Positions 52,840-55,456 of a stretch of DNA of 64,000 nt are shown here, in pieces. Origin of the DNA: Phycisphaerae bacterium (GTDB lineage: Bacteria; Planctomycetota; Phycisphaerae; Phycisphaerales; SM1A02); the NCBI GenBank assembly GCA_002705085.1, contig PAHO01000032.1:1-64000 (forward strand). The letters are read 5' to 3'. The notes below the pieces were generated by a model, which saw only the letters and a program-made list of their open reading frames with translations, was not told the origin of the DNA and ran no database searches. The position numbers were made by a program, and so were the translations under genes. Position 1 is the stretch's first letter. Each line of letters begins with the position of its first letter.

Positions 52840-52848
52840 AGCCGATAT
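52823..52848 (+). promoter_or_regulatory. candidate sigma-28 promoter of fliW-csrA
   Basis: TTAACTGG (52823-52830), 10 nt and GCCGATAT (52841-52848) resemble the sigma-28 consensus TAAAGTTT-N11-GCCGATAA, with 7 of 8 matches in the -10 half. It overlaps the end of flgL. FlgL-linked read-through is the alternative. Confidence 0.4.
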
Positions 52849-52855
52849 CCAAGTG

Positions 52856-52930
52856 CCGTGTTGAGCGACCTCGCAACACGGTCAGCAGGAGGCACGTCCC
52901 AATCGCGTTGATTGGGAGTCCAGGAAGGAC
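52856..52930 (+). promoter_or_regulatory. structured fliW-csrA mRNA leader with GGA-bearing hairpins
   Basis: Three possible hairpins follow one another: CCGTGTTG/CAACACGG (52856-52881), CCCAATC/GATTGGG (52898-52916) and GTCC-AGGAA-GGAC (52918-52930), the last with AGGAA in its loop, the form preferred by CsrA. The ATG of fliW follows at 52943. Confidence 0.45.
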
Positions 52931-52942
52931 GAGGTTCAGAGG

Positions 52943-53407
52943 ATGTGTTTGATGTCCAATCTTCAAATCGAGACCACCCGATTCGGTACTGTCAGCGTCG
53001 ATGGAGACCGAGTGCTCGAGTTTCCATCAGGCTTGCTCGGCTTTGCCCACGCAACCCGATGGGTGTTGCTGCAGCCCGATGAAGAGGGTTGCTTTTACTG
53101 GTTTCAATCTTGTGATCAGGAAGATTTGGCCTTTGTGGTGACCGATCCCCAGTACTGGGTTCCAGATTTTGAAGCGATCATTCGTCGCGAGCAATTGGAA
53201 GAACTCGGGGCCAATCAAATTGAAGACGCCCAGGTCTTCGTCATTGTCAATCGGTACCAGAACACTCTGACGGCGAACCTTCAAGGCCCGTTGGTGGTGG
53301 GAACCGCTTCACGCCGTGGTATGCAGTTGGTGTTGGCTGAAAAGCGATGGACCACCCGTCACGTCATTGTGGAACTCGAGGCCGCAAACGCCACCCGTAC
53401 CGCGTAA
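52943..53407 (+). CDS. fliW: flagellar assembly factor FliW
   Basis: 154 aa (an ATG three codons downstream is also possible). Family pattern: ETTRFGTVSVDGDRVLEFPS, GLLGFAHATRWVLLQPDE, FYWFQSCDQEDLAFVVTDP and VVGTASRRGMQLVLA. FliW binds CsrA when free of flagellin, relieving repression of flagellin translation, and binds flagellin otherwise. It is encoded directly before csrA and the flagellin gene, which is the standard arrangement of this partner switch. Cytoplasmic. Confidence 0.95.
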   Translation: MCLMSNLQIETTRFGTVSVDGDRVLEFPSGLLGFAHATRWVLLQPDEEGCFYWFQSCDQEDLAFVVTDPQYWVPDFEAIIRREQLEELGANQIEDAQVFVIVNRYQNTLTANLQGPLVVGTASRRGMQLVLAEKRWTTRHVIVELEAANATRTA

Positions 53408-53478
53408 TTTCGCCTGAATCTTGGTGGTCCACCCGCCACCAGTTCTTCATCTCAGCACGAGAGCCAGGAAGGAACCGA

Positions 53479-53742
53479 ATGCTCGTACTGTCTAGACATC
53501 GTGATGAAACCATCATGCTCGGCGACGACATTGAAGTCACTGTCGTCGATATCCGGGGGGACAAAGTCCGCTTAGGGATCCGGGCCCCTGATGCGGTCAC
53601 CGTCCATCGCAAAGAGATCTGGGAGGCCATCCGACAGGAGAACGAGCGGGCTGCTTCGAGCGACGCCATTCCCCAGTTCGCGGGCGAGCAATCGGCCCAG
53701 TTGCGGATCGCCCCTGCGGGGGTCTCGAAGCGCAAGGCTTGA
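53479..53742 (+). CDS. csrA: carbon storage regulator CsrA
   Basis: 87 aa from the ATG at 53479, 5 nt after AGGAAGGA. The conserved core is complete: MLVLSRHRDETIMLGDDIEV, VVDIRGDKVRLGIRAPD and VTVHRKEIWEAI, with the RNA-contacting Arg of the LSR motif and Arg in IRAPD. A tail of about 27 residues, longer than in E. coli, follows. CsrA dimers bind GGA motifs in mRNA leaders and block translation. Its own ribosome-binding site contains AGGAAGGA, so autorepression is plausible. Confidence 0.96.
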   Translation: MLVLSRHRDETIMLGDDIEVTVVDIRGDKVRLGIRAPDAVTVHRKEIWEAIRQENERAASSDAIPQFAGEQSAQLRIAPAGVSKRKA

Positions 53743-53844
53743 CGGGCATGATCGGTCTCAAAAGCGTCCGATAACCGCAAAAGTCCGGAAAAGTCGATCC
53801 AGAATTCAGGAAGCCTCCAGATTGGACCGATAGAACGACCAGTC

Positions 53845-53863
53845 GACGCGATGTGTTCGCGTC
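53845..53863 (+). other. perfect hairpin between csrA and fliC
   Basis: GACGCGA-TGTGT-TCGCGTC forms a 7-bp stem without a T-tract. It may end or stabilise the csrA transcript. The rest of this 223-nt gap holds the fliC promoter and leader. Confidence 0.35.
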
Positions 53864-53891
53864 ATTCCCGGCGGAGTCCGGGGAGCCGAGT

Positions 53892-53918
53892 CAAATATTG
53901 AGGGCAGGAAGCCGCGTC
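53892..53918 (+). promoter_or_regulatory. candidate sigma-28 promoter of fliC
   Basis: CAAA (53892-53895), 15 nt and GCCGCGTC (53911-53918) follow the TAAA-N15-GCCGATAA layout, with the GCCG half conserved. TCCGATAA at 53767-53774 has a better -10 half but no matching -35. The predicted start would lie near 53925. Confidence 0.4.
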
Positions 53919-53927
53919 CGTTCAAGA

Positions 53928-53945
53928 CCCCCGAAGGAATGGGGG
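53928..53945 (+). promoter_or_regulatory. fliC leader hairpin presenting GAAGGAAT, predicted CsrA-binding site
   Basis: CCCCC (53928-53932) pairs with GGGGG (53941-53945) around the loop GAAGGAAT, exposing AAGGAA as in known CsrA sites. A second GGA lies in the Shine-Dalgarno CGGAG (53956-53960), 5 nt before the ATG at 53966. Two GGA sites 20 nt apart would allow one CsrA dimer to bridge them. Confidence 0.55.
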
Positions 53946-53965
53946 CATTCTCTTTCGGAGCAATC

Positions 53966-55456
53966 ATGTCCAGCATCAACACCAACGTCTCCTCCATGCT
54001 CGCCCGTCGGGTGCTCGGCCAACAGCAGTCGATGATGACCCAAACGCTCGAGCGTCTCTCAACCGGTGTCTCCATCAATCGTGGATCCGACAACCCCGCC
54101 GGCCTCATCGCCTCGGAAAGCCTCCGAGCCGAAAAAGCCGCCATCAACGCTGCCATCGGCAATGCCGAACGGGCCGAGCAAATGGTGAACATCGCCGAGG
54201 GTGGTCTCCAAGAGATCAACAATCTCTTGGTCGAGCTGCAATCTTTGGTCGGCCAGTCCGCCAACGAAGCGGGCCTCTCCTCCGACGAGCGTGCGGCCAA
54301 CCAGCAGCAGATCGATTCGATCCTCTCGACGATCGACAGCATCGCCAGCTCCACCGAATTCAACGGTCAGAAGCTTCTCAGTGGTGGGTATGACTACACC
54401 TTCGACAGCAACTTCAACGACCAGACCTGGACTTACGCCAGTGTGAACAGCGCGAAGTTCTCGGGTTCCTCCCCCATCGACGTCAGAATTTCGGTCCAAA
54501 CTGAGGCCGAACAAGCTCAGCTCTACTTCGAGACCGGGGCAACCTTTGACGCGGATGGCGACGGTGACACCACCGGTACCGAGTCCCGAACGATCGAAAT
54601 CACCACCTCACAAGGTGTGCAGCAATTCACCTTCGTTGAAGGCACCAGCCAACAGCAAATCATTGAAGCTCTGAATTCCTATGGCGAACAACTTGGCTTC
54701 TCGGCCTCCCAAGACACAACTGACACCAATTACATCGCCATCACCAGCACCAACTACGGCTCAGCTGAAAGTGTTCGTGGTCGTGAAATTCAGAACAACA
54801 TTGGTTCCTTCACCACTGACGTGACCGTGGCTTCGGTCGCTGACGCTTCTGACACTGGCGTGGACTTGGGCGCATTGATCAATGGTGTTCAAGCCGTGAC
54901 CAATGGTTTGAACGCACGGGTCTCCACCGGCAACCTCGACCTTGAGCTGACCTTGAGTGGTACGGCAGCCATCAATGATGCCAACAACCCCGCGAGTACC
55001 GACTTCTTCCAGATCACTGGTGGTGGTGCGAGCTTCAACTTCTCTCCATCGGTTGACGATGCCGGGAAGACCGCCATTGGCATCAAGACGGTCGGTACCC
55101 AGTTCTTGGGCGATGGCGTGTCGGGCTACTTGGATGACCTCAAGTCCGGTGGCTCCGCCAGCGTTAATGGTGGCAGTGTGAGTTCCGCTCAGGACATCAT
55201 TGACTTGGCCATCAAGCAAGTCTCGGCACAGCGTGGTCGACTCGGTGCGTTCAGCAAGAACACCGTGGGTTCCACCATCAAGAATCTGGGCGTCAGCCTT
55301 GAAAATACTGCCGCGGCTGAGTCCGCCATCCGTGATACGGACTATGCCTTCGAGACTGCAGAGCTCACCCGCTTGCAGATCATGAACCAGGCAGCGACCC
55401 AAGCTTTGGCCTTGGCCAACAATGCACCCACCGCGGTGCTTAGCCTTCTCGGCTAA
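53966..55456 (+). CDS. fliC: flagellin
   Basis: 496 aa from the ATG at 53966 (MSSINTNVSSMLARRVLGQQ). The D0/D1 N-terminal helix with ERLSTGVSINRGSDNPAGLI and the SLRAEKAAINAAIGNAERAE block is highly conserved. The C-terminal partner is IRDTDYAFETAELTRLQIMN...QALALANNAPTAVLSLLG, the filament core. The central 170-390 is the variable, surface-exposed domain with Asp/Gly-rich segments (GATFDADGDGDTTGTES). It is exported unfolded and polymerises at the filament tip. A single flagellin gene is present here. It ends before a very strong terminator. Confidence 0.97.
   Translation: MSSINTNVSSMLARRVLGQQQSMMTQTLERLSTGVSINRGSDNPAGLIASESLRAEKAAINAAIGNAERAEQMVNIAEGGLQEINNLLVELQSLVGQSANEAGLSSDERAANQQQIDSILSTIDSIASSTEFNGQKLLSGGYDYTFDSNFNDQTWTYASVNSAKFSGSSPIDVRISVQTEAEQAQLYFETGATFDADGDGDTTGTESRTIEITTSQGVQQFTFVEGTSQQQIIEALNSYGEQLGFSASQDTTDTNYIAITSTNYGSAESVRGREIQNNIGSFTTDVTVASVADASDTGVDLGALINGVQAVTNGLNARVSTGNLDLELTLSGTAAINDANNPASTDFFQITGGGASFNFSPSVDDAGKTAIGIKTVGTQFLGDGVSGYLDDLKSGGSASVNGGSVSSAQDIIDLAIKQVSAQRGRLGAFSKNTVGSTIKNLGVSLENTAAAESAIRDTDYAFETAELTRLQIMNQAATQALALANNAPTAVLSLLG

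Follow-up and report, generated by a model that had tools for sequence, protein, structure and literature searches.

The non-coding leader of the flagellin gene fliC (approximately 53780-53965) in a member of the Phycisphaerales appears to act as a translational switch that is read by CsrA and relieved by FliW, a reading to which a probability of about 0.78 is assigned from the sequence. Such a CsrA-FliW-flagellin circuit in a planctomycete had been proposed in an initial annotation of the same DNA, and it is now well supported because hairpins displaying GGA in their loops are enriched across the order, on non-homologous stems, in the leaders of three genes. The reading is further favoured by a covarying Shine-Dalgarno hairpin in relatives, by selection on the non-coding leader within the genus, and by a CsrA that carries FliW-binding residues; from these patterns we infer CsrA binding, repression, relief by FliW, and the role of an outer stem around the ribosome site.

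The window, the whole stretch of 64,000 nucleotides analysed, carries on its forward strand fliW (52952-53407; PF02623, E 5e-33; PDB 5dmb chain A, E 1e-13), then csrA (53479-53742; PF02599, E 1e-23), then fliC (53966-55456; flagellin, PF00669/PF00700), so that the placement of fliW and csrA just 5' of fliC in the initial annotation is borne out by domain matches. Its assignment of the host to the planctomycetes also holds, the closest relatives with names being Phycisphaeraceae/Phycisphaerae MAGs. The fliW-csrA-flagellin synteny is general among Phycisphaerales relatives, and 57 of the 61 have FliW. Aligned to its B. subtilis counterpart, the window CsrA shows 51% identity and has the FliW-type extended C-terminus, including I51 and N55, residues with a demonstrated part in binding FliW in C. 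jejuni and, for N55, also in B. subtilis (PMC7829508). Its best solved relatives include PDB 1t3o and the CsrA-FliW complex 5dmb, which the window FliW matches as well. The same genome encodes a second, divergent CsrA-like protein of 74 aa (contig C10, L061:3369-3593, reverse strand), its gene lying between NfuA-like and MraZ-like genes; it has a short insertion near position 16, lacks the FliW-type tail, and is probably outside FliW control.

Besides flgL, fliC is the sole flagellin gene found in the genome, whereas many family members have at least two flagellins. The encoded protein is an orthologue of the second of these (fliC2), with up to 59% identity compared with about 40% to fliC1-type flagellins, and the first flagellin, fliC1, was not found in the window genus. 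The genus appears to have lost it when compared with family loci L136-L161, many of which keep the order fliW-csrA-fliC1-fliC2. Among fliC2 leaders (e.g. L144, L149, L150, L155, and L161), an ACGGATT element recurs about 40-60 nt 5' of the second flagellin gene.

The hairpin closest to fliC, H3 (53928-53945), is a putative CsrA site read directly from the sequence as CCCCC-GAAGGAAU-GGGGG, with five C (53928-53932) and five G (53941-53945) enclosing a loop GAAGGAAT (53933-53940) of 8 nt rather than 6, the GGA of which occupies 53936-53938. Its 3' end lies 20 nt before the fliC ATG (53966-53968), and 18 nt separate its GGA from that of the Shine-Dalgarno sequence (21 start to start). In fold ensembles of several lengths, its pairs have probabilities of 0.97-0.99 and its GGA is unpaired at approximately 1.0. 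Coordinates, folds, and conservation thus confirm the 5-bp G+C hairpin with a GGA loop described earlier before fliC, while the exposure of GGA holds for the H3 loop but not for the Shine-Dalgarno GGA, which is predicted to pair within an outer stem (53914-53920/53956-53961). H3 is identical in all four species of the genus, whereas the part of the gap adjacent to csrA is only 13% identical; this same invariance leaves covariation unable to test H3. When the csrA-fliC gap is shuffled with dinucleotides preserved, 0.25% of the shuffles contain an all-GC stem of 5 bp whose loop includes A-N-GGA, and 1.8% contain such a stem with any GGA loop. Counting against a CsrA site, besides the loop length, is that the C5-G5 stem is stiffer than those of most SELEX ligands, which have at most 4 pairs (PMC7652899). 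A repeat element was ruled out, H3 being single-copy in the genome with one occurrence even when two mismatches are allowed. Translation from an in-frame ATG at 53939 within the loop (MGAFSFGAIMSSINTN) was also rejected, because flagellins of the family start MSxINTN, the Shine-Dalgarno spacing suits 53966, and the nine codons that would be added include one that switches from F to L in two species.

Upstream, a second putative CsrA site that the initial annotation did not contain, H1 (53865-53884), forms UUCCCGG-CGGAGU-CCGGGGA with 7 pairs around the all-GC core CCCGG-CGGAGU-CCGGG (53867-53882). It folds with a probability of 0.94-0.98, except in the longest fold, the one that takes in 53780-53839, where the value decreases to about 0.37, and it changes only once in the genus, to CCUGG/CCGGG in one species, the pair being kept as U-G. 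The fliC leader thereby holds at least two GGA sites in hairpin loops (H1 and H3), and two separate all-GC GGA hairpins of this kind occur in 0.01% of shuffled csrA-fliC gaps. Between them, H2 (GGC-AGGAA-GCC, 53903-53913) is weak, with a probability of only 0.02-0.31, and may be a minor site. The outer stem, in which GC-UCCG (53914-53920) pairs with CGGAGC (53956-53961), encloses H3, belongs to the minimum-energy structure in all folds, and is invariant in the genus. It takes in the fliC Shine-Dalgarno GGAG (53957-53960), 5 nt before the ATG, with its GGA predicted to pair with 53917-53919 (unpaired probability at most 0.1), and the predicted fold therefore hides the ribosome site and shows a GGA at its tip. 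For a 101-nt segment, the total folding energy is unremarkable (z 0.21), a measure judged insensitive to short hairpins, and the Rfam families gave no match, only a sub-threshold CRISPR repeat match on the other strand, in csrA.

Identity among the four species across the non-coding leader (53766-53965) ranges from 79 to 100% by segment, the successive values from 53766 being 88%, 79%, 96%, 86%, 100% (H3), and 95%, compared with 13% for 53743-53765, 76% for csrA coding sequence, and 84% over the opening 300 nt of fliC. Because the leader is conserved as much as, or above, the adjacent genes, its alignment indicates that it is under selection in the genus. At the 5' edge of the conserved leader, GTCCGATAA (53766-53774) is kept in all four genus members and resembles the sigma-28 -10 element GCCGATAA, which makes it a candidate sigma-28-type promoter; the four-species alignment has no conserved -35 with it, and no sigma-70 promoter was seen in 53700-54000. 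The sharpness of this edge suggests a transcription start near 53780, with the hairpins included in the mRNA. The genus has its own leader type, in which H1 and H3 each present a GGA at the tip and the outer stem contains the Shine-Dalgarno sequence. It lacks the Shine-Dalgarno loop typical of most Phycisphaerales fliC leaders, a loop of the fliC1 type, and this absence accords with the window gene being a fliC2 orthologue and with fliC1 not having been found.

Across the order, approximately 200 related leaders were searched for hairpins of at least 5 bp showing GGA in the loop. Against shuffle expectations that ignore relatedness, and with most genomes being MAGs, such hairpins occur in 25 of 56 fliC leaders (3.4 expected; 0/200 shuffles), 5' of the Shine-Dalgarno hairpin, in 59 of 80 fliW leaders (10.1 expected), which are the richest class, and in 45 of 79 csrA leaders (7.0 expected). 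The enrichment persists when only 75 nt are considered, when the genus itself is left out, or when a single genome set is used. The hairpins use 22, 49, and 40 distinct stems, respectively, fliC examples being GGCCCCGA-AGGA-UCGGGGCC and GAACGA-CGGA-UCGUUC. GGA ranks first among the 64 loop triplets in fliC leaders, second in fliW leaders, and first in csrA leaders, and its complement TCC shows no comparable excess (2/56, 9/80, and 6/79). Coding controls are at expectation (6/65 versus 6.9 for fliC, 10/80 versus 10.4 for csrA), while leaders of other genes lie slightly above it (9/60 versus 4.6), as would be expected if some of these were targets too. Exact ACA(N)GGAUGU cores number 19 in fliW and csrA leaders, with about 0.1 expected, and by sequence fit the CsrA SELEX consensus RUACARGGAUGU, which is shown in loops and can be bridged between sites 10-63 nt apart (PMC7652899).

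In most relatives, a hairpin of the form CAAUC-ANGGAG-GAUUG lies over the flagellin Shine-Dalgarno sequence, directly 5' of the start codon, in flagellin leaders that follow csrA. In an alignment of 48 distinct sequences, which took the Shine-Dalgarno sequence and not the pairing as its anchor and left out the window genus and three fliC leaders whose start is of another type (L037, L073, and L076), its covariation score is 0.146, compared with 0.101 in shuffles (0/500 reaching it) and 0.044-0.053 when slid. Five of its seven pairs change on both sides, for example to GACAAAC/GUUUGUC in L048.

The leaders of the two regulatory genes in the window have hairpins of their own. Before fliW, GUCC-AGGAA-GGAC (52918-52930) is a putative CsrA site, invariant in four species and present in the minimum-energy fold with its GGA unpaired at 0.8-0.9, and a further hairpin, CCGUGUUG...CAACACGG (52856-52881), has a loop without GGA and shows compensatory changes in the genus alignment (UUG/CAA, CUG/CAG, UCG/CGA). 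The csrA leader has a weak hairpin, CC-AGGAA-GG (53464-53472), at the ribosome-binding site, invariant in the genus. The fliW leader of Phycisphaerales (e.g. 52841-52951 of the window) is a structured element, and at least two separate GGA hairpins are found in 55 of 80 such leaders. At 24 further loci used for a check across the phylum, two planctomycetes outside Phycisphaerales have textbook, hag-like site pairs: L175 carries GCCGGACA-AGGA-UGUCCGGC, then AAUCAAGGAGGAUU, and L179 carries CCCGCGCA-AGGA-UGCGCGGG, then AUCAAGGAGGAU. CsrA-type sites on fliW, by contrast, seem characteristic of Phycisphaerales and their near relatives, because GGA hairpins are mostly missing from fliW leaders outside the order.

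In the mechanism proposed, a CsrA dimer would grip the GGA of the H3 loop and a second GGA, most likely that of H1, which begins 63 nt before the first, or else that of the Shine-Dalgarno sequence. Holding H3 closed would stabilise the outer stem and keep the Shine-Dalgarno sequence hidden, so that ribosomes could not start on fliC. FliW free of flagellin would then bind CsrA in its C-terminal part, near I51/N55, and take CsrA off the RNA, and flagellin would thus be made once earlier flagellin had been exported. A GGA at the Shine-Dalgarno sequence that is open to CsrA is usual, though not universal, among CsrA targets. Given that the window lacks the Shine-Dalgarno loop of most Phycisphaerales leaders, repression may work differently in detail from that in relatives; a direct block of the kind seen in hag or flaA (PMC4894983) is possible by analogy, as 18 nt separate the GGAs of H3 and the Shine-Dalgarno sequence.

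Other readings of the leader have been weighed against this one. H3 could be a weak intrinsic terminator or attenuator before fliC, perhaps controlled by another leader fold, and a pattern scan does find H3 plus CATTCTCTTT terminator-like (0.3 expected in shuffles), with a short GC-only C5-G5 stem and then a T-rich tail, CAUUCUCUUU. The stem, however, has only 5 pairs, the tail contains no unbroken T run longer than 3, and termination would leave unexplained the choice of GGA among 64 triplets in the order's fliC and csrA leaders as well as the Shine-Dalgarno hairpin of relatives; we consider it highly improbable. There is a slight chance that the leader is structured for a purpose independent of any protein, as a ribosome-binding-site hairpin, RNA thermometer, or mRNA stabiliser whose fold tunes translation or half-life, the loop GGA being incidental. 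Pairing of the Shine-Dalgarno sequence in the outer stem and the strong conservation of the leader would be in keeping with this, whereas the enrichment of GGA loops on unrelated stems, with the complement not in excess, and the adjoining fliW and csrA are not. The abundant flagellin mRNA might also serve mainly as a decoy for CsrA, as is reported for flaA mRNA of C. jejuni, repression weighing more at fliW and csrA, as could be read from the wealth of GGA hairpins in fliW leaders (59/80, at least two separate ones in 55/80) and from the regulatory role of C. jejuni flaA mRNA (PMC4894983); this too is very unlikely, for in most relatives one site lies over the fliC Shine-Dalgarno sequence, which points to repression of fliC.

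The switch read by CsrA and relieved by FliW may be part of a wider arrangement. Since GGA hairpins precede both genes throughout the order, CsrA probably also limits its own synthesis and that of FliW. A proposal for which the odds are about even is that, in Phycisphaerales, GGA hairpins in the leaders of fliW, csrA, and fliC put the entire cluster under CsrA control; CsrA would repress its antagonist FliW while FliW inactivates CsrA, and a double-negative loop would thus sit atop the flagellin homeostasis loop. Further systems must restrict the amounts of FliW and CsrA in B. subtilis (PMC6529632), a remark on which the candidate sites on fliW and csrA bear. If true, the double-negative loop could fix the amounts of both proteins or give the flagellin switch two states.

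Experimental work on CsrA-FliW control covers few lineages, namely Bacillota, Campylobacterota, and some others. Gene content alone had already led to Planctomycetes being counted among the probable users of FliW (PMC4682653), and in the open literature, most subscription papers being outside the scope of the search, no description was found of RNA sites in Planctomycetes or of CsrA acting on fliW mRNA. The evidence at the RNA level thus appears to be new, the prediction at the gene level having been known before; it turns that prediction into something concrete in a further phylum and suggests that the circuit is old. As in the Hag-FliW-CsrA system of B. subtilis, fliW and csrA lie beside the flagellin gene, CsrA is of the N55 type, and the leader has two GGA sites, but one hag site overlaps the Shine-Dalgarno sequence, whereas in the window that GGA is predicted to be paired and the second displayed GGA lies upstream, in H1; for the GGA hairpins before fliW and csrA in Phycisphaerales, no B. 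subtilis description was found. The C. jejuni flaA leader, where CsrA binds two ANGGA stem-loops (SL1 and SL2; PMC4894983) and FliW is the antagonist, likewise has ANGGA loops before a flagellin gene, with AAGGA in the loop, and relatives in the order share its layout, in which SL2 lies across the ribosome site. The window lacks an SL2-type loop at the Shine-Dalgarno sequence, and its leader, in the gene order fliW-csrA-fliC, is probably about 185 nt long compared with 45 nt for flaA. The nearest mode of action to the one proposed is found in P. aeruginosa, where binding of RsmA to psl mRNA stabilises a hairpin that sequesters the Shine-Dalgarno sequence (PMC7652899), albeit on another gene and with no link to FliW.
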